A stretch of 64,000 bases of DNA, taken from contig NZ_AUIA01000011.1 in NCBI RefSeq assembly GCF_000423465.1, forward strand, positions 124,001-188,000, in the 5' to 3' direction. Below are positions 3,839-57,166 of the stretch, piece after piece (position 1 is the first letter of the stretch; the number at the start of each line of letters is the position of its first letter). Below the pieces are notes generated by a model, which had not been told where the DNA came from, did not search any database, and saw only the letters and a program-made list of their open reading frames with translations. This DNA is from Propionicicella superfundia DSM 22317 (GTDB lineage: Bacteria; Actinomycetota; Actinomycetes; Propionibacteriales; Propionibacteriaceae). The translations under genes were made by a program, and so were the position numbers.

Positions 3839-4111
3839 ATGACCGCAGAACCCCGCATCCGAACGCTCGCGGACGAACGCACCGAGGAGCGTCTCGACCC
3901 TCGCGTCGAGGAGGGTGATCACGATCGTTTCTCCCACTACGTCGAGAAGGCGAAGCTGACCGAGGCGATGGTCATGGGGACGCCGGTGATCGCGCTGTGC
4001 GGCAAGGTGTGGATCCCGAGCCGCAATCCCGACAGGTTCCCCGTGTGCCCCGACTGCCGGCGGGTCTGGGAGGGCCTCAAGCCCGGCGGGGACGATTCGG
4101 GCGACGAGTGA
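3839..4111 (+). CDS. DUF3039 domain protein
   Basis: A 90-residue soluble actinomycete protein of unknown function. The conserved core TEAMVMGTPVIALCGKVWIP (residues about 40-60) is followed by a second cysteine pair in FPVCPDCRRVWEGL. With the Cys of ALCGK this makes a three-cysteine knuckle that could bind a metal or Fe-S cluster; that is inference. The first 35 residues are charged (DERTEERLDPRVEE). Its TGA overlaps the GTG of the following MFS gene (GTGA), so the two are translationally coupled. Confidence 0.9.
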   Translation: MTAEPRIRTLADERTEERLDPRVEEGDHDRFSHYVEKAKLTEAMVMGTPVIALCGKVWIPSRNPDRFPVCPDCRRVWEGLKPGGDDSGDE

Positions 4112-5556
4112 CGCGCCGGCGACCGCTCATCGGGCGGTCGTCGGATATCGAGTTGCCCCGTCCGTCCGAACCTGATGGGCTGGCGGGCGTGTCCGAACGC
4201 TCCGGCCCGTCACGGGCGCTGACGATCAGCCTGCTCGTCTGCGTCCTCGCCATCGCGTTCGAGTCGCTGGCCGTGTACACGGTCATGCCGGTCGTCGCGA
4301 AGGAGCTCGGCGGCCTCGACTACTACGCGTGGGCGTTCACGCTCTTCATCATCGGGATGATGTTCGCGACCGTCGCCGCGGGTCGGCTCGCCGATCGCTT
4401 CGGCCCCGGGTACCCGCTGGCCGGCGGGCTGGTGCTGTTCGTCGTGGGCCTGCTCGCGGGCGGCTATGCGCCCAGTATGAGCGTTCTCCTGGTGGGACGG
4501 TTCGTGCAGGGGCTCGGCGCGGGCACGCTCAACCTCGCTGCGATGGTGCTCGTCGCCCGCCTGTACGCGCCGGTCGCACGGGCGCGGATCATGACCTGGA
4601 TGTCGGCGTGCTGGGTGTTGCCCGCGTTCTTCGCGCCCGCCATCGGGGCGTGGCTGGCCACCCACTTCGGCTGGCAGTGGGTGTTCCGGGCGGTGGTTCC
4701 GGGCGTCGTGATCGCAGGAATCGTCTCGGCCCGCCCCGTCCTGCGGCTGGGCCGCTCGCTCTCTCCCGCGGCCCCCGACCCGGCGGTGCGTCCTGTTCCC
4801 GTGTGGGCCGCGGCGGCCGTCGCGCTGGGCGCGGCCGGCATCCAGCTCGCCGGGCAGCACCTCGAACTGGCGTCGCTCGCCTCCCTCGCCGTGGCGGTCG
4901 TCCTGCTGGCGGTCTCACTGCCGCGGCTCATGCCGCGCCGGCACGGGTCCGGTCGGGATCTGTGGACGGTGATCGGCGTCCGGCTGCTGGCCGCCGGCGC
5001 GTTCTTCGGCGCGGAGTCGTTCACGCCGCTGATGCTGACCGAGACGCGCGGACTGGACACGCTCGCGGCCGGCACCGCGCTCACCGTCGGCTCGGTCGGG
5101 TGGACGATCGGATCGTGGCTCCAGGCCCGGCCGTGGATCACGCTGCGTCGCGACCGGCTGCTGCAGCTCGGCGGCGTGGTGCTCTGCGGCGGCGTGTGCG
5201 CCATGGCTCTCGGGGCCTACCTCGCGACCGTTCCGCTCGTGGTCATGGCGCTCGCCTGGACGTGCTGCGGGCTGGGCATGGGACTGATCGTGCCCGTGAC
5301 GACGCTGACGACGATCCAGTTGTCCGGCGATGCCGAGCAGGGCCGGAACAACTCGTCGCTGCAGGTCGGCGAGGCGCTCGGCAACAGTCTCTTCTCGGGT
5401 CTGGCGGGCACGATCTTCGCCGCCGTCCACGCGTCATGGCCCGTGAGCTCGACGTTCGGCGCCGTCATCGGCGCAATGGCCGGTGTCGGGCTGGCGCTGG
5501 TGATCCTGACGATGCGTCTGGGGCCGCTGGCCAACGAGGCGTCGGCGCCCGCCTGA
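4108..5556 (+). CDS. MFS transporter (drug/multifunction type)
   Basis: A 482-residue major facilitator with about 12 or more hydrophobic segments. Seen: the loop 2-3 motif AGRLADRFGPGYPLAGG, motif-B-like VGRFVQGLGAGTLNLAAMVLVARLY, and an ESFTPLMLTETRG segment opening the second half. The N-terminal 35 residues are cytoplasmic and charged. The GTG at 4108 overlaps the DUF3039 stop; a later GTG at 4189 (VSERSG) is an alternative start. The substrate is not predictable, and the overall look resembles drug-proton antiporters. It runs to within 6 nt of the convergent kinase gene's stop, leaving no room for a terminator. Confidence 0.9.
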   Translation: MTRRRPLIGRSSDIELPRPSEPDGLAGVSERSGPSRALTISLLVCVLAIAFESLAVYTVMPVVAKELGGLDYYAWAFTLFIIGMMFATVAAGRLADRFGPGYPLAGGLVLFVVGLLAGGYAPSMSVLLVGRFVQGLGAGTLNLAAMVLVARLYAPVARARIMTWMSACWVLPAFFAPAIGAWLATHFGWQWVFRAVVPGVVIAGIVSARPVLRLGRSLSPAAPDPAVRPVPVWAAAAVALGAAGIQLAGQHLELASLASLAVAVVLLAVSLPRLMPRRHGSGRDLWTVIGVRLLAAGAFFGAESFTPLMLTETRGLDTLAAGTALTVGSVGWTIGSWLQARPWITLRRDRLLQLGGVVLCGGVCAMALGAYLATVPLVVMALAWTCCGLGMGLIVPVTTLTTIQLSGDAEQGRNNSSLQVGEALGNSLFSGLAGTIFAAVHASWPVSSTFGAVIGAMAGVGLALVILTMRLGPLANEASAPA

Positions 5557-15079: not shown

Positions 15080-15870
15080 AGGCCTATCTCGATCTGCTCG
15101 ACCGGATCCTCGCCGACGGCGTCCGGCGCGATGACCGCACCGGCACCGGCACGCTGAGCGTCTTCGGCCACCAGATGCGGTTCGACCTCCGCGAGGGGTT
15201 CCCGCTGCTGACGACGAAGAAGCTGCACACCCGCTCGATCTTCGCGGAGCTGCTGTGGTTCCTGCGGGGGGACACGAACCTCGCGTGGCTGCACGAGCAG
15301 AAGGTGACGATCTGGGACGAATGGGCCGACGAGGACGGCGACCTCGGGCCCATCTACGGTCATCAGTGGCGTTCCTGGCCGACGGCCGACGGCCGGACGA
15401 TCGACCAGATCGCCCGCCTCGTCGAGGCGTTGCGCTCCAATCCGGACTCGCGGCGGCACATCGTGTCGGCGTGGAACGTCGGCGATGTCGACGAGATGGC
15501 CCTGCCGCCCTGCCACACGTTGTGGCAGTGCTACGTCGCCGAGGGACGGCTGTCGGTGCAGTTGTACCAGCGGTCGGGCGACGTCTTCCTCGGCGTCCCG
15601 TTCAACATCGCCTCGTACGCCCTGCTCACGCACCTGCTCGCGCAGGTGAGCGGCCTGGAGGTCGGCGAGTTCGTCCACACGCTGGGCGACGCGCATCTGT
15701 ACCTCAACCATCTCGACCAGGCGAGGCTGCAACGGACACGCGAGCCGCGTCCGCTGCCGCGCATCCACATCAATCCCGAGGTGACGGCGATCGACGAGTT
15801 CGAGCTCAGCGACTTCGAGGTCGTCGGCTACGACCCTCACCCGAGCATCAAGGCACCCATCGCCGTATGA
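15076..15870 (+). CDS. thyA: Thymidylate synthase
   Basis: A 264-residue enzyme, the length of the Escherichia coli protein, that methylates dUMP to dTMP using methylene-tetrahydrofolate. Seen: [18 protein letters not shown], the active-site region [12 protein letters not shown] with its nucleophilic cysteine, [20 protein letters not shown], and the C-terminal KAPIAV that closes the site. GTG 15076 overlaps the rdgB stop. It is followed directly by dihydrofolate reductase, its functional partner. Confidence 0.97.
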
Positions 15871-16364
15871 CCCGGACACCGACCATGACCAAGACCGTGA
15901 CCGCCATCGCGGCGGTGGCCCGCAACGACGTGATCGGGGTCGGGCAGCGGATCCCGTGGCACCTCCCCGAGGACTGGGAGCGCTTCCAGGCCGTGACGAT
16001 CGGGAACATCCTCATCATGGGCCGCAAGACGTACGACTCCATCGGGGCTCCGCTGCCGGGCCGCACGACGATCGTCGTCAGCCGTTCTCGCCCGGAGCTG
16101 CCTGCGGGCGTCCGCGTCGTGGAGTCCCTGGACGCTGCGCTGGAGCTGGCCGAGTCCTTGCCGGGGAGGGTGTTCGTCGCCGGTGGCGCGGAGGTGTACC
16201 GGGCCGCCTGGCCGCGCCTCACGGACCTCGACCTGACGCTGGTGGACCAGGAGCCCGAGGGCGGGACGGCGTTCTTTCCCAGCGTGAATCCGTCCGAATG
16301 GGACGAGATCGCGACGGTGGCGCGCGAGGGCTACACGTTCGTGCGGTACCGCCGCCGCCGCTGA
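15867..16364 (+). CDS. folA: Dihydrofolate reductase
   Basis: A 165-residue enzyme that regenerates tetrahydrofolate consumed by thymidylate synthase. Seen: [22 protein letters not shown] (substrate Asp at the end), [23 protein letters not shown] for NADPH, and [18 protein letters not shown] 15867 overlaps the thyA stop; a second in-frame ATG at 15885 (MTKTV) is also possible. It is the last gene of the operon, followed by the third 60-bp repeat. Confidence 0.96.
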
Positions 16365-16389
16365 GGCGACCGTCGCGCCGCGCTCGCGC

Positions 16390-16449
16390 GTCGAACGCTC
16401 CACAACTGGCGGAATTCCGCTGGAATCCGGCAGTTCGGGAGCGCTCGGC
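16390..16449. repeat. 60-bp palindromic repeat, copy C
   Basis: Same 60-bp length and end arms as copies A and B (GTCGAACGCTCC at left, GGGAGCGCTCGGC at right). It has an inner palindrome GCGGAATTCCGC and an AACTG/CAGTT pair. It lies between convergent folA and the 348-residue membrane-protein gene. Confidence 0.8.
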
Positions 16450-16487
16450 GAGGTGCGCGGGGCTCGGACGTCGGCGACGACACCCCG

Positions 16488-17534
16488 TCAGGAGTTGTTC
16501 TTCGACTCCTGGACGGTCGCGGCGGCCGTCGCCACCGGGGTGCTGGTCTGCGTGGACACGCCGGCGGGACTCGTCCCCGAGGTGGGGGTCGTCCGGGTGG
16601 CCGACGGTGTCGCGGACGCGGTCGGCGTCGCCTCGGTGGAGGTCGTCGTGGTGGCGGACGCCGGGGTCGGGGTGACCGACGACGTGGAGGCCGGTTCCGT
16701 GCTGGACGCGCTCGTGCCCGTCTCGGTGGAGGTCGGTTCGGCGCTCGACCCGGAGCTCGACGTGGCGGTCGGCTCGGCGGCGACGGCCCTGCGCCCCTGC
16801 GCGATCTGCCCCAGCGACGTGCCCTGGCCGCCGGACAGCGATTCGCCGGTGAGTGCCTCGAAGCCGGTGATGGCTCCGAGGGAGATCGCGAAGGCGGCGG
16901 CCGCCGACGCCAGGGACGCGCCCACGAGGACCGGCCACCGCCGACGAGGAGGAGTCGTGCCGGCGGGCCGGGTCTTCTCGGCCGTCGTCACCGTGCCGTC
17001 CACGGGCAGGACGGTGGTGGCGTCCGGATCCGGGATGGGCAGGACGGTCGTCGCGTCCGGGTCGGCGGTGGGCAGGAGGACCGTCGCGTCCGTGTCGCCG
17101 GTCGAGGCGAGCGCCTCGGCGTCGTGCGGGGTCGCGTCGAGGACGATGCTGCCGGCTTCGGCCGGGTCCGCGGCCTGGGCGGCCGTCGTGTCCGTGGCGA
17201 GCGGTGCCGTCGCGGCGCGTGCCTCCTCCGTCGGCTCGATGCCGCGGATCCGCCGGGTTCCGAGCACGGTCAGGTGCTTGATGTGATGGTGGGTCTTCTC
17301 GATCCCGGCCTGGTAGACCGTGCCGGCCACCGCCGAGGCGACGCTGCCGACCGCGGCGCCGAACACCGTGCCGGCCACGCCGAGCTGGGAGCCGAGGATC
17401 GCGGCCGTGGCGGCGGCCATCGCACCGGCCGTGACCTGGGGTACCGAGATGCGGGGGGTCTTCTCTGTGGGTTCCGTGTCGTCCGTGCTGGTATCGCTCA
17501 AGATCTCGTTCGATTCCTTGCCGTTGTTCAGCAC
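16488..17534 (-). CDS. Hypothetical membrane protein with DATTVLP repeats
   Basis: A 348-residue protein I cannot assign. A polar N-terminus (1-30) is followed by a small-residue-rich hydrophobic stretch at about 33-75. A cytoplasmic segment at about 76-200 carries the near-tandem repeats DTDATVLLP, DPDATTVLP and DPDATTVLP. One clear membrane helix follows at about 212-232 (WPVLVGASLASAAAAFAISL), then a Ser/Thr/Pro/Ala-rich tail that is probably extracytoplasmic. The repeated acidic-Thr-Val-Leu-Pro sites resemble Ser/Thr-kinase targets; that is inference. The start is GTG 17534, preceded closely by TAGAAT. Confidence 0.75.
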   Translation of the reverse strand: MLNNGKESNEILSDTSTDDTEPTEKTPRISVPQVTAGAMAAATAAILGSQLGVAGTVFGAAVGSVASAVAGTVYQAGIEKTHHHIKHLTVLGTRRIRGIEPTEEARAATAPLATDTTAAQAADPAEAGSIVLDATPHDAEALASTGDTDATVLLPTADPDATTVLPIPDPDATTVLPVDGTVTTAEKTRPAGTTPPRRRWPVLVGASLASAAAAFAISLGAITGFEALTGESLSGGQGTSLGQIAQGRRAVAAEPTATSSSGSSAEPTSTETGTSASSTEPASTSSVTPTPASATTTTSTEATPTASATPSATRTTPTSGTSPAGVSTQTSTPVATAAATVQESKNNS

Positions 17535-48299: not shown

Positions 48300-49493
48300 T
48301 CAGGCCGTCGGTGGTGACGCGCCGAGGTCGAGGAGGAGGTCGTCGAGGACCTCCTCCTCGTAGGCGCTGAGACCGGCGGGCATCCGCCAGGATTCGGCCC
48401 CGGGGAGCTCCAGGAGCCGACTCACGATCGACCAGCCGACCGCGTCGCCGTCGGCACGGACGCGGAGCCTCGTCGACGGTGCGAGGGCGGTCAAGAGGGT
48501 GGTTGCCGCGAGGTTGGGGAGGCCGAACGTACACACCAACGGTCCGCTGGCCGCACCGAATGCATCGGCCGCGGCTTCCACGACGGCGGGGTTCTCGCAG
48601 ACGAACACCTCAGGCGTGCCGTCGGCCAGCGCGAACGGGTGCCGCAGAGTCCGCAGCGTGAGCCATACCGGCTCGCCCGTGACAGCGCACAGCCGGGCCG
48701 CCGGGCCGTCGCCGATCAGCGGCAGGTTCAGCACAAGCACCAGCGCGGAAACCCCGTCGCAGACGACACCCACCGAGGCCCACGCCTCGCGCCAGGCGGC
48801 CGCGTCGCCGACGGGGTCGGCATATGGGCGCTCGGGTGTCGCAGCCCGCCCGCAGGCGAAGCGGACGACGGCGCGGCCCAGCCCAGCGGAGCGGTCCAGC
48901 GCATGCGCGTCACCGAACAGTTCCGCGGCGAGCACACCCAGCCGGACGGGTTGCTCCGTGGGCGAAATGCTCGCGTGTGCGTCGAGGCGGCGGATCACTC
49001 TCGTGATCTGCTCGGCGCGATTCACCTTGTCGTCGGCGCCGACCAGGCAGCGCTCCAACACAGCCGGATCCATCACTGTGGGAGACAGGGACGCGAGCAG
49101 GGCGAGAGCGCTCTGGCGGTTCGAGACGCGTGCCGCTCGCGCCTCGGCCCGCTCGGAGCGCAGGTCGCGCAGCGGCCCGCCGACTGTGGTGAGCAGGTCC
49201 TCCAGCGTGACGCCGTGGTCGTCGAGTGCCCGGCGCAGCTCGAGCGCCGACACCGGGTCGCCGGACGCCGCCCAGGACGGTGCCAGCATCTGGCCGACCT
49301 CGGCTCGCTCCGCTGGAGTGAGGTCGAGCTCCAGCTTCGCTCGCGACCCCAGCCGTCCGGATTCCACGCGGACTCGTGCTGCCGCAAGCACCTTGGCCGG
49401 ACCGGGCCGCGCCGCCCAGTCGAGGAGGAATGGCGGCACCGTGACGCTCGACCCCTCGGCCGTCCCTGGGACGGGCCGACCCGGCCGCGTCAT
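48300..49493 (-). CDS. jetD: JetD-like Toprim nuclease subunit (TIGR02679/DUF2399)
   Basis: A 397-residue protein, the last gene of a Wadjet/Ept anti-plasmid cassette. The N-terminal two thirds are helical (LRRALDDHGVTLEDLLTTVG). The C-terminal Toprim-like domain carries Glu300 in FVCENPAVVEAA and the Asp pair 348/350 in RVRADGDAVGWS, the residues expected for metal-dependent DNA cleavage. In characterised systems this subunit cuts circular DNA trapped by the SMC motor. ATG 49493 overlaps the jetC stop (ATGA). The catalytic residues are intact. Confidence 0.88.
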   Translation of the reverse strand: MTRPGRPVPGTAEGSSVTVPPFLLDWAARPGPAKVLAAARVRVESGRLGSRAKLELDLTPAERAEVGQMLAPSWAASGDPVSALELRRALDDHGVTLEDLLTTVGGPLRDLRSERAEARAARVSNRQSALALLASLSPTVMDPAVLERCLVGADDKVNRAEQITRVIRRLDAHASISPTEQPVRLGVLAAELFGDAHALDRSAGLGRAVVRFACGRAATPERPYADPVGDAAAWREAWASVGVVCDGVSALVLVLNLPLIGDGPAARLCAVTGEPVWLTLRTLRHPFALADGTPEVFVCENPAVVEAAADAFGAASGPLVCTFGLPNLAATTLLTALAPSTRLRVRADGDAVGWSIVSRLLELPGAESWRMPAGLSAYEEEVLDDLLLDLGASPPTA

Positions 49494-52400
49494 AGCAGCG
49501 CGTCCTGGTCGGGCGGGACGGCGGGCGACGGCTCGAGCCAGGACAGAGGTAGGTCGATCGCCTCCAGCGTGCCGCCCGCCCACAGCTCAAGGGTCAGGTC
49601 GGCACCGGGGACGGGCTCGGGGGCGCGGACGACCTGGTAGATCGCCGCCGCCGGAACCACCGCCACGTTGACCAGCCGGCCGGGCCCGGCGACCAGAACG
49701 TCGAAGTCGAACTCGCGCAGCAGGTCCATCACCATCGACCGGTTAGGCACGTCGAGACCGTCGAATGCCTCGTCGAGCCAGAGCGGACGAGGGGCTCCGG
49801 ACATCTCCTGGTAGAGCGCGGACAGCGTCGCGACGAGGGGCAGCATCAGCATCACGGCGCGGGCTCCGCCCGACAGCAGGGCGAAGCTGCGCGTGTTCAG
49901 CGGACCCCAGTTGCCACCCTTGCCGACGCGCCGCTCAAGGTGGATCTCGTACCAGGCGCGGTAGTCGAGTTGGCGCGCGAGTGCGTCGCGCCAGTCCGCC
50001 TGACCCTCGTCGGTGGCCTGACGCTTGGCTTCGTCGACCCGAGTACGGAGGAAGTCGCGAACCTGACCCGCGACGTCGGGGTCGAGCAGGCCGCCCTTCC
50101 GGCGGAATGTGTCGAGCACGGCCCTGTTCTGCCCGGGCTCGAGCCGGATGCGCAACGCGGTGTCGCTGGTGGAGGTGGCGTGCTGCAGCAGCACGATGTT
50201 GATGTCGTGAATGAGTTTCTCGGTCCGGCCGATCCGCTCGCGCATGTGCTCCAGGAAAGTGGAGCCCAACAGGTCGTCGAGTGTCTGCTGAACCCTGGCA
50301 TCATATGCCTCGGACAACATGGTGACGGTGTTCGAAAGGGTGGTGGTCGCTTCCCGAAGGGGCTGCGTGGTGCCGTTCGAGTTGACCGTTACCTCGATCC
50401 GGACGAGATCGTCGGCCGGCTCGAGCTGCAGCGAGCGACCGCCTTGCTCCAGTTCGTCCCGGGCCTCGCGTGCGTCGCCCTCGAGCCCCGACCGCAGCCG
50501 CTGGAGGACGTGGGCGTTGGCTTCGGGATCGCCGTCGCGCCACTGCCGGCCGGGATTGACCGCGCGACGCACCTCGGCCACCTGCGCCCGGACGTGCTCC
50601 ACGCTCGACGAGTGGGGCTCCGTCAGGGGGAGTCCCAGATCGTCGGCGACCCCGCGGTCGATCAGCGAGCGGAAGCGACGATAGGCCCGGTCCCTTTCCC
50701 TGGTGGCCGACTGGCGTAGCTCTTCGACGCTGCGGAGGTGTTCCCTGGCGGCGCCCACGTCGGCCGACACCTTGATCCGTTCGGTCTCGTGCCGACCTGC
50801 TTCGTCGGAGGCATCCTTCGCCGTCCTCTGCAGCCGGCCCAGCTCGTCGAGCACGGTCTGGTCGTCGGCGTCGACGGCCGAGCGCATCGCCTCGGACCGA
50901 GCTTCCGCCACCCCCAGCGCTCGTTCTGCTTCCGCGTGGCGTCTCTGTGCTTCGGCACGTTCGTCCTGCAGCTCTTCGAGCTTCGACCGAGCGTGGTCGG
51001 CGCGCCGCTCGGAGAGGGCAACGGCTTCGTTCTCGCGTTGCAGCGTCCGAAGCGCGGCGCGCAGGTCCTGGAGCGCAGCGACGACCTGGCTGATGTCTTC
51101 TCTCGTGTGCGGCAGCCGGTGCTCGTTTGCGAACCGCAGCAGCTCGGCCTGGCGGGTCTCGGCGGACGCCCGCGCGTCACGAGCCCGCTCCTGGCTCTTG
51201 GCCGCCGCAGCCCGGGCCTCCTCGGCCACGTCGGCCAGAATGCCTGTGGCGCCGAGTCGTCGCCGCAATTCGGCGTCCGACGGTGCGTGGCGGACGGCAC
51301 CGGCCACGGCGTCCAGCGCGGCCTGCGCCTCGGCCCGCCCCGCCTCATGCGCGGCGGCTTCCTCCTCGGCCGTCGCGATCTGGGCGGTGAGCTCCGTCAA
51401 CCGACGACGACGCTGTGCCTCGCGCGCCGACTCACCCAGCCACTCGGCGGCCTCGTGGGTGGGAGCGGCGGTGCCTTCGAGTGCGGAGTTGCGCCATCGG
51501 CCGTCGACGGCGACCGCGACGCCCGCAGCGGGCAGCGACTCGTCCGCGCGCCGCAGTGCCACTCCGTCCAGCACCGCCTGCGCGGCAGCGCCGAGGGAGC
51601 CCGCATCGTCGGCGACGCACAGCAACGCGGACAGCCGGAGACCGTCACCCGGATTGTCGGGGGAGACCGCGAATGTGTCGAGCCCGTGTGCTCCGCCCGG
51701 CTCGACCCAGGCGTCCAGCAGCCCGGCTGCTGCCAGCGCCGCCTCAATGTGCGCCACCTCCGCGTCGGTCGCCGCCGGCACGGGATTCAGCAGGCGCCAC
51801 AGAGGCGCACCCGACACCCCTGCGCGGGAGCGACGGTGCCACAACGTGGGCGATGGCGGCGGCGCCACGCCCGCGCCTTTCAGTTCCGAGATGTCGTGCC
51901 GCAGACGGTTGGCTTCGGTGAGGGCGGATTCCTTCGCGGTCGCTGCGGCAACCCGTCGCTGCTCGAACTCTGTTCGGAGCGGTTCATACCATTCGGCGCG
52001 AATGATGTCTGTGAGAAGTGGGGCTGACAGGTCCCCGGTGGCGCGGGGCAGCGCCTCGATCCAGGCCGCGAACCTGTGCACGGGTTGTGGCGCGATGGCC
52101 GCCCACGCCTCGATATTGGCCACGAGCGCCTCGTGCTCGGCCTCCGCGTCGGCCCATGCTCCCTCGGCTTTGGTGTTCGCCTCGTCGGCACTGGTGGCTG
52201 CCGCCCCGGCGAGGGCCTCCTGCTGGGCGGCCGCGGACTGAGCGTCCTCTGCCACGCGCAGCAGTCCCAGGGCGCGATCCGTCGCCTGCCGGCGTTGCTC
52301 CGTGCTCTGCAGCAGTCGACCCGGGTCGAGCGTCTCCGATGGCGGCATGCCGGCGAGTCCGGCTGTTCGGCGTACCTCGCCCGCCGCGCCTTGCGCCTGC

Positions 52401-53638
52401 TGCCGGGCCTCATCCGCGAGGTCCACCTCCGTCTGGGCAGCCTCCGCCGCATCGGCCGCCCGCTTGTCCGCGCGATGCGCGCCGTCTCGGGCCGCATCGC
52501 GGTCCGATCCCGCGCGGCGCATGTCCTCCTCGGCGCGGCGAGCGTTCTCAATGCGGGTGCTGGCGTCCTTGTAGGCGGCCGATTCGAGCAGTTGCTCGGC
52601 CGCCGCTCTCACGGAGGCCGCGCTCAGGGAAGCGGCGTCCGCGAGACGCGCGAGGTCGCTGTCTCTAGCCTCTGCCGTCGTCAGGGTAGCCTTCGCGGTC
52701 TCCTCCTCGCGCGTCACCCGGTCGAACCCGGTGCGCTGGGCCGCGGCGTCGTCGGCGTCGATCCGGAGCCGCGCACGCAACCAGGGCCGCCACGATCGTT
52801 CGGCGAGGCGCGCCACACGTTCGGCGGCCCGGCGGGCCCGCTCCAGATCGTTGCGGATCTGGTCGAGCTGGTCCCAGCCCTGGGCGAGTTGGTCGATCTC
52901 GCCCTGCCGCAACGCCGGCAGCGAATCGCGGAGGTGATCCGTCACGAACCGGACATCGAGTTGCGCGCCCAGCTTCGGAGTCCGGGTCACCTTCAGGATC
53001 TTGCCGATGGTCTCGAGCCGGTCGACTGTGGAGCCCAGCAGGCGCTCGGCTACCGCCGCCTTGTAGAGCTGCCCGGAGGGATACGGGAAGAAACCGGGCG
53101 CCTCGATGGCCTTCGGTGGCAGGACGTCGCGGCCGGCGGTGAGACGCAGCGCCTCACGCACGCGACTGGACTCGCAGGTGCACCATTCGAGGGCGACCTT
53201 CTGGCTCCCGGTACGCGCCGACGAATACAGCAGCGTGGTGAAGAACCGCGGGCCCGTATCGGTGACCCGGCCGTATTCCACCCACAGCCAGCCGTGGAAG
53301 AACGACGCGGAGGCGTCCCGCCGGTCGCCGTCGGTGCCGATGGGCCGCACATAGTAGGCGAACTGCTTGCCAGACCGGCCGAGGGTGTCGATGTTGGTGC
53401 TGGAGGTGTCGCCGAGCCAGGGGATCAGCGTGGTGAGGGCCATCAGAGAGGACTTGCCGGTCTCGTTGCGGCCCATCAGTTGCGCCCAGCCGTCGGCGTA
53501 CCAATACTCGGCGACCTCGAACTCCCACAGGTTGACCACGCCGGCCCGTAGCGGCTGCCAGCGCTTTCGGGTCGGGGTCGGGAACCCGCCGGATCGGGCG
53601 GCATCGCGCCAGGCCCGCAGATCGTCGTCGGTCCTCAC
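49490..53638 (-). CDS. jetC: JetC-like SMC ATPase (TIGR02680)
   Basis: A 1382-residue SMC-like motor. The N-terminal head has VVNLWEFEVAEYWYADG and Walker A GRNETGKS (56-63). Two long coiled-coil arms (about 250-560 and 770-1020, very rich in Ala/Glu/Arg) flank a hinge-like globular region near 600-720. The C-terminal head has signature LSGGARAV (from 1255), Walker B PLWLDEA (1285-1291) and D-loop FDGLD. It extrudes DNA loops to recognise small circular DNA in known relatives. GTG 53638 overlaps the jetB stop. All ATPase motifs are intact. Confidence 0.92.
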   Translation of the reverse strand: MRTDDDLRAWRDAARSGGFPTPTRKRWQPLRAGVVNLWEFEVAEYWYADGWAQLMGRNETGKSSLMALTTLIPWLGDTSSTNIDTLGRSGKQFAYYVRPIGTDGDRRDASASFFHGWLWVEYGRVTDTGPRFFTTLLYSSARTGSQKVALEWCTCESSRVREALRLTAGRDVLPPKAIEAPGFFPYPSGQLYKAAVAERLLGSTVDRLETIGKILKVTRTPKLGAQLDVRFVTDHLRDSLPALRQGEIDQLAQGWDQLDQIRNDLERARRAAERVARLAERSWRPWLRARLRIDADDAAAQRTGFDRVTREEETAKATLTTAEARDSDLARLADAASLSAASVRAAAEQLLESAAYKDASTRIENARRAEEDMRRAGSDRDAARDGAHRADKRAADAAEAAQTEVDLADEARQQAQGAAGEVRRTAGLAGMPPSETLDPGRLLQSTEQRRQATDRALGLLRVAEDAQSAAAQQEALAGAAATSADEANTKAEGAWADAEAEHEALVANIEAWAAIAPQPVHRFAAWIEALPRATGDLSAPLLTDIIRAEWYEPLRTEFEQRRVAAATAKESALTEANRLRHDISELKGAGVAPPPSPTLWHRRSRAGVSGAPLWRLLNPVPAATDAEVAHIEAALAAAGLLDAWVEPGGAHGLDTFAVSPDNPGDGLRLSALLCVADDAGSLGAAAQAVLDGVALRRADESLPAAGVAVAVDGRWRNSALEGTAAPTHEAAEWLGESAREAQRRRRLTELTAQIATAEEEAAAHEAGRAEAQAALDAVAGAVRHAPSDAELRRRLGATGILADVAEEARAAAAKSQERARDARASAETRQAELLRFANEHRLPHTREDISQVVAALQDLRAALRTLQRENEAVALSERRADHARSKLEELQDERAEAQRRHAEAERALGVAEARSEAMRSAVDADDQTVLDELGRLQRTAKDASDEAGRHETERIKVSADVGAAREHLRSVEELRQSATRERDRAYRRFRSLIDRGVADDLGLPLTEPHSSSVEHVRAQVAEVRRAVNPGRQWRDGDPEANAHVLQRLRSGLEGDAREARDELEQGGRSLQLEPADDLVRIEVTVNSNGTTQPLREATTTLSNTVTMLSEAYDARVQQTLDDLLGSTFLEHMRERIGRTEKLIHDINIVLLQHATSTSDTALRIRLEPGQNRAVLDTFRRKGGLLDPDVAGQVRDFLRTRVDEAKRQATDEGQADWRDALARQLDYRAWYEIHLERRVGKGGNWGPLNTRSFALLSGGARAVMLMLPLVATLSALYQEMSGAPRPLWLDEAFDGLDVPNRSMVMDLLREFDFDVLVAGPGRLVNVAVVPAAAIYQVVRAPEPVPGADLTLELWAGGTLEAIDLPLSWLEPSPAVPPDQDALL

Positions 53639-54783
53639 GCGTCCTCCGGGAAGAGCGGGTCGTCGGGAATGGAGAGGTCGGCGTCGCGATAGCGGCCGGC
53701 CAACGGGGTGAGCCGCCAGGCGCCGTCGGACAGCACGTGCAGCAGGCCCAACGCGGTGAGCCGCTCCTGGGCGGCGACCAGTACCGCAGACGGCGACTCC
53801 TGGAGGGCCTTGGTGAGGTGTCTGCTGCTGGAGGCGTGCAGGTCGGTGGCGAGCCGGCGTACCTTCTCCGCAGGGCAGACGCGGAACGATCCGGTGTCCT
53901 CCCGCGCGGCGCCCTCCAGGAGGTGCAGCGAGACCCAGTCGACGGTGGTTGCGGAGGGGAAGTCGACCTGGAGGTCGGCGGGGAGGTCACGGTCGGCGGG
54001 CAGGACGAGGGTGATGGCATCGCTTCGGATCTCCACCGAGCCGCCCGTCATCTCCTCGGCACGCGACGCCAGTCGGGTCCGCTGCCCGCTGAGGTAAGCC
54101 CGCGAGGACTCCGGCAACTCGTCGACGAGGATGGCCTGGGTCTCCACCAGCGCGCGCAGCAACTCGACACCGCGAGTGTCATCCTCGGGCTCGCCTCTTC
54201 GGGCAAGCGCCAGGTCGACGTCGCCGGTGTCGATCAGCATCATCAGCGCGTCGCGGTGGAGCAGGTAGCCGGCACCGATGCCTTCGCCCGAACGCTCCCA
54301 GCCTTCCACCAACTGCTCGTCGGTGCGGGGCTCCAGTACTCCGTGCCCGACGAGCAGGCGCACCGCCGCGATCAGACTCTGACGGTGCGGGCGCAGGTTC
54401 GGGTCGTAGGGCCAGCGGCCGAGTCCAGCGGTCGCCAGCCGGACGACGTCGGAGAGTTCTTGCAGCGTTATGGCGTCTTCGTGATGATCGTCGAGGCACG
54501 CTGCCGCGTACAGCGTGAGAAGCAGCACAGCCCGGCGCGGGGCCTCGCCGTCGGGGACCGCGACACCGCCGTCGAGAGGGACGCGCCGGAGCCGATAGCA
54601 GCGGTCGAGGTGGACCAGTCGGTAGTCGAGTCGGCCGCACCACGTGGTGAGGGTTGCGGCGTGCCGGTGGACCAGCGGGTAGAGCGCCGGGTGCGACCAG
54701 GGTGTGACGACCTGGGACGACAGCAAGCCCAGGAAGGCGCGCTGCTTGTCCGCGTCGTCCGCGCGCCGCATGGACTCGGTCAT
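53635..54783 (-). CDS. jetB: JetB-like subunit (TIGR02678/DUF2398)
   Basis: A 382-residue protein of the DUF2398 family, the KITE-like partner that bridges kleisin and SMC heads in Wadjet-type complexes. It opens with DADKQRAFLGLLSSQVVTPW and carries VHRHAATLTTWCGRLDYRLV, AVLLLTLYAAACLDDHHEDA, then winged-helix-like stretches (LRALVETQAILVDELPESS) and ends PLFPEDA. The length is normal for the family and there is no internal stop. ATG 54783 overlaps the jetA stop (ATGA). It is translationally dependent on jetA, whose frameshift may reduce its expression. Confidence 0.88.
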   Translation of the reverse strand: MTESMRRADDADKQRAFLGLLSSQVVTPWSHPALYPLVHRHAATLTTWCGRLDYRLVHLDRCYRLRRVPLDGGVAVPDGEAPRRAVLLLTLYAAACLDDHHEDAITLQELSDVVRLATAGLGRWPYDPNLRPHRQSLIAAVRLLVGHGVLEPRTDEQLVEGWERSGEGIGAGYLLHRDALMMLIDTGDVDLALARRGEPEDDTRGVELLRALVETQAILVDELPESSRAYLSGQRTRLASRAEEMTGGSVEIRSDAITLVLPADRDLPADLQVDFPSATTVDWVSLHLLEGAAREDTGSFRVCPAEKVRRLATDLHASSSRHLTKALQESPSAVLVAAQERLTALGLLHVLSDGAWRLTPLAGRYRDADLSIPDDPLFPEDA

Positions 54784-56211
54784 GTGCCGAACTCCACATC
54801 CGCGTCGGGCATGGCGAGCCGGCCGTCGGGGATCGTCAGCACAGCGGACCCCGGGCGGGGACGGAGGATCAGGCTCCAGCGGCCGTCGGCGCTCCGTCCT
54901 GTGCTCACGCCGTCACCGGAGCGCTGGTTACGGGCGATCGAGACCAGTTCGAGGAAGAGCTCCGCCTCGGTCGCGCCGAGCGCGCCCCAGGCGCTGAGCG
55001 GGGTCCCGGAGCGGGCGGCCAGGGAGGATCCGGCCCGCTCCAGATCAGCCTGAGCCCGGGCCGCCAGCAGGCGGGCCTCGGCCCGGGCCGCCGAGGTGTC
55101 GGCGATGCGGGTGGCTCGCCCGGTCAACGCGCGAGCGCCTTGCGTTCGCAGTCGGCGCGAGATCGCGGCCGGAGGTGCATCCCAGGTGGAGGTCTGTGGT
55201 CCCGCAGCGATATCGGGCGTCTCCCAGGTGACGTGCCGAGCGGAGTACAGGCCGGTGGAGGTGCACCACAGGCGCCAGGCGTCGTCGTCGGTGTCGGCCC
55301 GTTCGAGCGCGGCGGCCAGGCGGAGCAGATCGGCTTTACGCGAGACGGTGCCGCCCACGGCCAGCAGAGTGCGGTGGCTGCGCAGCACGGGGGTGACGGC
55401 GTCGCGGATCTGCCGCCGCAGCCGTTGTGCTTGGGGGTGATCGCCGGAGAACCACGTGGCCAGAGTGTGGACCACCGCGCGCATCTCCTCGGCGGCATCG
55501 GTCAGCGCGATCTCGGCGGCCTCAGCTCCGAGCCGCGCCAGAGCCATGGCCCGCCAGTCCGGCGCGGGCACCTCGCGGAGCCGGGGCAGGGTGGCGGCGA
55601 TGTCGTCGGTCCACGCGTCGACTCCGGAGCCCCACGCCTCGACGTAGGAGAGGATCGTCTCGAGCAGGCGGGTGACCTTCTGCTCGGTCGGTGCCCCGCC
55701 GAGTGCCGCGGTCAAGAGCCGCGAGAGTCGCAGTGAGGCGCTCCACGAGAGTGACTGGCGCCAGCAGCACGGCGGTCGACGTCGTGCCGAGGTCTGCCTC
55801 GATGCGCCGCGCCGCCGCGTTGAAGGCGGAGCCGGCCTCCGTCAACTGGTAGCGGTGGCGGTTGCGGAGGAAGTCCGGCTGGGACTCGGCGCGGTCCTGC
55901 CATGACTCGCAGGTGCCCCAGTCGACGAGTTGACGCATGCGGCTGTCGAGGTCGAGGTCGGAGAGGAGGCCCCGGGTGGCGTCGCCGGGGAGCCGCGCGC
56001 GGACGAGTGCCTCGAGCTCGTCGTGCCCGATGCCCGTGAGCGAGTGCATGCGCTCGTCGTCGAGGATGTCGACGATGAGGCGATACTGCTTCGCCAAGGG
56101 GCCGGTGAGATAGGACGCAGCGGTCACAGCTCCCGGCAAGGACAGGAGCTGCCAGGGGGTCGGTGCTGGGACGTCCACCATCGCCTCCGTCGTCTCGCCA
56201 GGTTCCGACAT
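54780..56211 (-). pseudogene. jetA: JetA-like subunit (TIGR02677/DUF2397), split by a frameshift
   Basis: Kleisin-like first subunit of the cassette, readable only by changing frame. The N-terminal part (from ATG 56211; alternatives ATG 56181, GTG 56178 with GGAGG) runs SYLTGPLAKQYRLIVDILDD, VDWGTCESWQDR and RHRYQLTEAG to VTLVERLTATLAALDRG. The family then continues one frame over from about 55715 as LGGAPTEQKVTRLLETILSY through HPQAQRLRRQIRDAVTPVLR and STGLYSARHVTW to the stop at 54780. The shift lies at CCGCGG (55706-55711); a lost CG dinucleotide would explain it. Restored length is about 477 residues, normal for the family. Either genuine inactivation or a sequencing error. Confidence 0.8.
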
Positions 56212-56545: not shown

Positions 56546-57166
56546 GTGACCGAGATCGCCACTCGGACCAGGGCCGGGGTGTACCGGATCGAGGATCTCG
56601 CGAGCCTCGTCGCGCAGGGGCGCCTCCGCGTGCCAGAGTTTCAGCGGAACTTCCGCTGGGTGCGCAAAGACGTTCTGAACCTCTTCGACAGCATTCTCAA
56701 GGGCTATCCGATCGGCAGCTTGTTGCTGTGGAGCCGGCCAGCCGGAGCAGCCCAGGTGAGGCTGGGCGAGTTGAGCATCCCGGCGCCCGAGACCACCGAG
56801 GCGATGTGGGTCGTCGACGGCCAGCAGCGCATCACGGCCATTGCGAACGCAGTCGACCAGCTTGCCTACGACGCTTCCGAGCGCTTCCGGATCGACTTCG
56901 ATCTGGCCAAGAACGAGTTCGTCCCGGGTGGCGGCGGAGGCGACGAGCCGCGGGTACCGCTTCCGGTGCTGTTCGATCTGCGACGCCTGCTGGAATGGGC
57001 GCAGGCCCGGCCGGACGCCGCATGCGCCATGTTGGCCCCCTACGTAAGCCCAGCCCAGGACGGTCGAGACAGCGACACCCCGCTTCGCCGACCGTCGGCG
57101 CGTGGAGGCGCGGCATCTGCTCTGAGCTCGTCAGCCTGCTCTCGGCGGGACGGGCCGCGGTGTTGA
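56546..57166 (+). pseudogene. DUF262 (GmrSD N-terminal type) protein, truncated
   Basis: The first 155 or so residues are a clear DUF262 ParB-like nuclease domain: IEDLASLVAQGRLRVPEFQR, FRWVRKDVLNLFDSILKGYP, IGSLLLWSRP and VVDGQQRITAIANAV with the DGQQR motif. Family members run on for hundreds of residues. Here homology stops near LRRLLEWAQARPDAA (about 57,030) and the frame ends in 50 residues of low-complexity out-of-family sequence. The breakpoint marks a deletion or recombination joint. Intact relatives include type IV restriction enzymes, so this is a dead defence gene beside the Wadjet cassette. Confidence 0.78.

Follow-up and report, generated by a model that had tools for sequence, protein, structure and literature searches.

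The window analysed here, a 64,000-nucleotide stretch of the genome of Propionicicella superfundia DSM 22317, carries on its minus strand, at 48300-56211, the anti-plasmid Wadjet gene set jetA (in two pieces), jetB, jetC and jetD. Judging from its sequence, this type II Wadjet cassette has most likely been disabled recently through the loss of some 98 bases from within jetA, which makes it a broken member of its type. An initial annotation of this DNA had offered three options for the frameshifted jetA (recent inactivation, reversible on/off control by slippage of a CG dinucleotide, or a sequencing error), and recent inactivation is the best supported of them. The Wadjet identity and the broken first gene proposed there were borne out by our analysis, but CG slippage and the assignment to type III were not.

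The cassette begins with the 5' piece of jetA (55522-56211, minus strand), composed of about 167 native codons (56211 to ~55711) followed by about 62 out-of-frame codons and a TGA at 55522. The 3' piece (54780-55715, minus strand) lies in another frame, is open over 311 codons and encodes the C-terminal part of DUF2397. On the same strand come jetB (53635-54783, DUF2398), which we take from the published assignment to be the KITE subunit, jetC (49490-53638), the SMC ATPase gene (TIGR02680/SbcC_Walker_B), and jetD (48300-49493), the Toprim nuclease gene (DUF3323 and DUF2399), all three with an intact open frame. Consecutive genes overlap, the stop of jetA with the ATG of jetB, the stop of jetB with the GTG of jetC and the stop of jetC with the ATG of jetD at 49493; this last start is not proven, as GTG 49583 and GTG 49439 are also in frame, and the C-terminus of JetD ends at the same place as in relatives. 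The motifs expected in JetC are present (GRNETGKS at 56-63, LSGG at 1255 and LWLDEAF from 1286, where Walker B had been placed at 1285), as are E300, D348 and D350 of JetD in the numbering from ATG 49493, and from general knowledge of SMC and Toprim proteins we take these positions to be catalytic.

The family assignment is consistent across three collections of models. As had been proposed, the best NCBIfam matches of the four genes were TIGR02677 (for both jetA pieces), TIGR02678, TIGR02680 and TIGR02679, all under the NCBI curated cut-offs, and strong Pfam matches were obtained for DUF2397 (jetA), DUF2398 (jetB), SbcC_Walker_B (jetC) and DUF3323 with DUF2399 (jetD). PADLOC returned with high scores the type II models JetA2, JetB2, JetC2 and JetD2: both halves of jetA matched PDLC00534 as well as DUF2397, jetB matched PDLC00544 (405 bits, residues 8-374), jetC PDLC00553 (652 bits) and jetD PDLC00557 (209 bits). 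The PADLOC matches were of type II throughout, with a weak type I match for JetC as the sole extra. Type I (MksBEFG) was rejected, the JetC1 model scoring 16.9 bits against 652 bits for JetC2, and no match to JetC1 (PDLC00516) was found in the organism's own genome. Type III was likewise rejected, as PADLOC matched none of the four genes to a type III model at E <= 0.001. The designation "Ept (type III)" given at first is thus not supported by the PADLOC models or by the best solved structure, the Wadjet-II JetA of Neobacillus vireti. In an excerpt of one paper, the Mycobacterium smegmatis operon is drawn beside MksBEFG of Corynebacterium glutamicum, the latter termed type I (PMC10123090). The cassette of P. 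superfundia has jetA2 at the head of the operon, an adjoining JetB2, a JetC2 with its motifs and a JetD2 with its Toprim residues, but its jetA2 lies in two frames, lacks about 98 bases and is not able to give a full kleisin; it is therefore classed as a broken type II Wadjet cassette and not as a working member.

The frame change is seen where it was first reported, near 55711, at the CCGCGG of 55706-55711, and the size of the lesion emerges from comparison with intact genes. The two jetA pieces cover positions 9-158 and 191-504 of the 511 positions of PDLC00534, leaving 159-190 in neither. In 14 out of 14 close relatives from the Propionibacteriaceae (51-76% identical in the N-terminal part, jetA_N, and 53-67% in the C-terminal part, jetA_C), exactly 93 bases, or 31 codons, lie in frame between the counterpart of residue 167 and the point where the 3' piece begins. 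Because the pieces are 93 bases apart in the relatives and overlap by 5 bases in the window, about 98 bases (32 codons plus 2) are absent, a size estimated from relatives and not from the ancestral sequence. The junction lies at 55706-55716 (minus strand), its ends being defined to within a few bases. Its 11-base sequence is commonplace, with 6 matches at one mismatch or fewer (itself included) against 3.66 expected, a number reached by 14 of 100 shuffles. The short repeats found near the junction fall into eight families, four direct and four inverted; no copy of a direct repeat touches the junction, and one inverted arm (55694-55707) does.

These measurements change the reading of the lesion. 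It had been thought that a single missing CG separated the gene from a normal protein of ~477 residues; all 14 close relatives, however, carry 31 further codons in this slot, and a two-base change cannot give a normal protein because these codons, invariant in length among the relatives, are absent. That jetA is switched on and off reversibly by CG slippage at CCGCGG, which would fit the frame offset taken alone, is contradicted by the presence of just two CG units at the site and by the 98-base deficit relative to all 14 close relatives, with the loss of conserved codons; there is no repeat tract whose change by a unit restores a normal jetA, and we regard such a switch as scarcely conceivable.

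The missing slot is equivalent to residues 157-187 in the JetA of Tessaracoccus bendigoensis (L036) and includes, in that numbering, T173, M177, A181, W184 and Q185, which are invariant in 16 of 16 aligned full JetA proteins. In an AlphaFold2 model of the T. bendigoensis protein (mean pLDDT 74.7 and pTM 0.47, for which local structure alone is trusted), the slot falls mostly in a helix at 160-193, after the N-terminal winged-helix-like part. The protein might still be thought to work as two polypeptides, or through translational frameshifting, given that the 3' piece has stayed open with its conserved residues kept and that start-like codons occur in frame at 55571, 55547, 55484 and 55475. Either way, however, the 31 codons with their invariant residues would be absent, and from established SMC biology a split kleisin is not expected to bridge the SMC heads. 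The surrounding order also speaks against this arrangement. JetA matches at E <= 1e-20 were found in 33 of 391 genomes (with at most three candidates scored per genome), and in 31 of the 33 one open frame of at least 499 amino acids underlies the match (which in 13 of these 31 spans about half to 60% of the model, at its C-terminal end); this genome and that designated G037 are the two that depart from the rule. A JetA functional in pieces is accordingly judged highly improbable.

The rest of the cassette carries little trace of decay. At sites otherwise invariant, the window shows changes at 1/41 in jetA_N, 1/72 in jetA_C, 2/83 in jetB, 12/303 in jetC and 1/97 in jetD, and the relatives show 0-5, 0-6, 0-9, 0-24 and 0-13, respectively, with similar totals (15, 15, 13, 11 and 8 sequences compared, including four mutually close relatives, which lowers their counts). 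GC content at the third codon position is 0.84-0.88 in the native pieces (0.88 in the 5' piece of jetA) versus 0.58 in the out-of-frame tail. Since the conserved sites appear uneroded, the lesion should be either young or an assembly error, two cases that these data cannot separate.

The second case, in which jetA would be intact in the organism and about 98 bases were dropped from the assembly, has several points in its favor: the deletion is read from one draft assembly, in 23 contigs, of a genus that this genome alone represents in the set (1/1), the coding sequence around the break is free of decay, and a Micromonospora draft (L054) has one-base losses in jetA and jetC that resemble draft errors. 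On the other hand, a clean loss of 98 bases is untypical of base-calling errors, and the collapse of a repeat is not expected, since in the 14 relatives sequences spaced 98 bases apart near the junction match over 4 nt at most, although the letters of the ancestor may differ. The sequencing error proposed at the outset thus survives as an unlikely option, and as a loss of 98 bases instead of an extra or missing CG. The same assembly, which is 98% complete, gave one match for jetA and one for jetB, so no spare copy is evident in it.

If the deletion in jetA is genuine, its consequences can be anticipated from what is known of the complex. As the kleisin of the complex, JetA bridges the SMC heads, and its N-terminal part joins two motors. 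Without it, JetB and JetC would form no DNA-extruding ring and JetD would not be brought to circular DNA, so that, from this kleisin role, restriction is expected to be lost: plasmids would no longer be restricted, a predicted loss of function. Upstream of jetB, the premature stop would also leave about 740 bases untranslated, and expression of the overlapping downstream genes may be reduced as a result. According to an excerpt of work on Bacillus subtilis, all four subunits are required there to suppress plasmid transformation, and JetA is regarded as a MukF-like kleisin (PMC10586767).

Divergent from jetA lies a 3'-truncated DUF262 (GmrSD_N) gene (56546-57166, plus strand), cut after about 157 residues. 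Its homology ends near 57000-57031 in comparison with six of its seven best relatives and at 57076 with the seventh, and these seven have open frames of 554-617 amino acids; no further significant piece of the gene was found within 2.5 kb (one match at E 1.5), and no DUF262 gene was found near jet in the loci of the 14 relatives. Beyond this remnant are an ABC transporter pair and a MarR regulator, and beyond jetD an MFS transporter and another MarR regulator. The flanking ABC gene was matched in 139 of 197 family genomes (E <= 1e-40) and the MFS gene in 4 of 197 (E <= 1e-80), so neither flank served to define an empty site.

How other members of the family have fared was followed across 198 genomes, 20 of which match the jetA 3' piece at E <= 0.001, 15 strongly (this genome and the 14 other Propionibacteriaceae used above, with T. 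bendigoensis as the nearest) and five weakly. A first scan of contigs with jetA_C of the window alone gave 63 pattern matches, none confirmed, and an alignment-based scan yielded 28 loci. The family cassettes number 17, namely those of the window, the 14 relatives, G037 (L107) and an uncultured Arachnia (L046), a count that leaves aside the five weak-match genomes (G009, G114, G057, G106 and G068). Four cassettes run off contig ends (L024, L025, L028 and L029) and were not judged whole. Among the 13 that were, eight carry each of the four genes in a single frame (L021, L022, L023, L027, L030, L032, L034 and L046) and five are broken. Besides the window, the broken ones are L026 (G167, Raineyella antarctica), whose jetD is split between two frames at 15393-17209; L031 (G034), whose jetD at 4111-4939 is about 430 bases shorter than that of L034, overlaps by 17 bases at the break and changes frame once more; L033 (G028), where no jetD was found downstream of jetC (~5048) within the extracted stretch; and G037. 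In this last genome (L107, 7134-7652 onward), jetA breaks off after residue 167 and continues into DNA that in T. bendigoensis lies beyond jetD, with the loss of about 7.95 kb. The flanks of the G037 locus are 99.9% identical to those of T. bendigoensis over 2782 nt on the left and 94.4% identical over 1912 nt on the right, which hints at an exchange between species as well as a deletion. A second jetD-like fragment, 73% identical over 59 residues, was observed at 6-179 of L032, near the edge of the locus.

Outside the family, 16 loci (L048-L063) were judged for jetA alone, jetD being often too diverged to find. Both jetA halves lie in one frame at 15 of the 16 (with L061 truncated at the end of its contig), and a single base splits the gene in L054. 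At this locus of Micromonospora sp. CB01531 (7398-14272), jetA has lost one base in a run of C, and jetC another, relative to L050; both losses are probably draft errors. Some of the breaks within the family, above all that of L026, could be draft errors of the same kind. We hold it possible, if rather doubtful, that type II Wadjet cassettes of the Propionibacteriaceae have been disabled repeatedly and recently by independent deletions, as costly systems cycling between gain and loss.

Several known systems place the cassette in context. Gene order is the same as in jetABCD of T. bendigoensis DSM 12906 (L021/L036), which among the 14 relatives is the most similar in jetA_C (67%), jetB (65%), jetD (62%) and, counting full-length matches, jetC (59%), and in which, unlike in the window, jetA lies in one frame. 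A profile of 16 intact JetA relatives matched JetA of the N. vireti Wadjet-II structure (9qe0_E) over positions 25-504 of 508, with E 6.8e-17. By Foldseek, the top match of the T. bendigoensis model was again the N. vireti Wadjet-II JetA (PDB 9qe0, 9qe1; E 4.2e-11), with a TM of only 0.20, so that the overall fold arrangement was not recovered; chains from MukBEF and MukE-MukF structures followed. This ranking accords with the published reading of JetA as a MukF-like kleisin. A search of the PDB with JetD gave no match, and no paper naming 9QE0 was found in the literature searched. As an excerpt on the N. vireti system reports, that complex cleaves naked circular DNA (PMC12647877), whereas the window jetA is about 98 bases short. 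In plasmid records, we found only distant relatives of JetC (18 records, the best places at <31% identity and at most 48% covered).

Losses of this kind have precedents. Excerpts of two papers describe jetA and jetC pseudogenes in some strains of Xylella fastidiosa (PMC9148166) and, as an example of the PADLOC authors, a frameshifted jetC of type I (PMC9252829). As in the window, single jet genes are inactivated there with the rest of the cassette present, but the lesion of the window is an internal shortfall of 98 bases, affects a type II jetA and occurs in another organism, whereas the PADLOC example is of type I. Another excerpt describes the ept null of M. smegmatis, in which an anti-plasmid SMC system has been lost naturally from a strain that is used because it takes up plasmids better (PMC10586767), with the mutation in the SMC subunit EptC, whereas the lesion of the window is in jetA. 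The parts of the literature on Wadjet systems that were available contained no report of the present cassette. Broken Wadjet genes are thus already in print, and this cassette adds a new case to a type of event already known. The main value of the finding is a correction: what looked like dinucleotide slippage in a known defence system is a shortfall of about 98 bases. Should cassettes of the family indeed break repeatedly, they would provide intact and broken type II forms in related bacteria, suited to measuring what the system costs and how it affects plasmid carriage.
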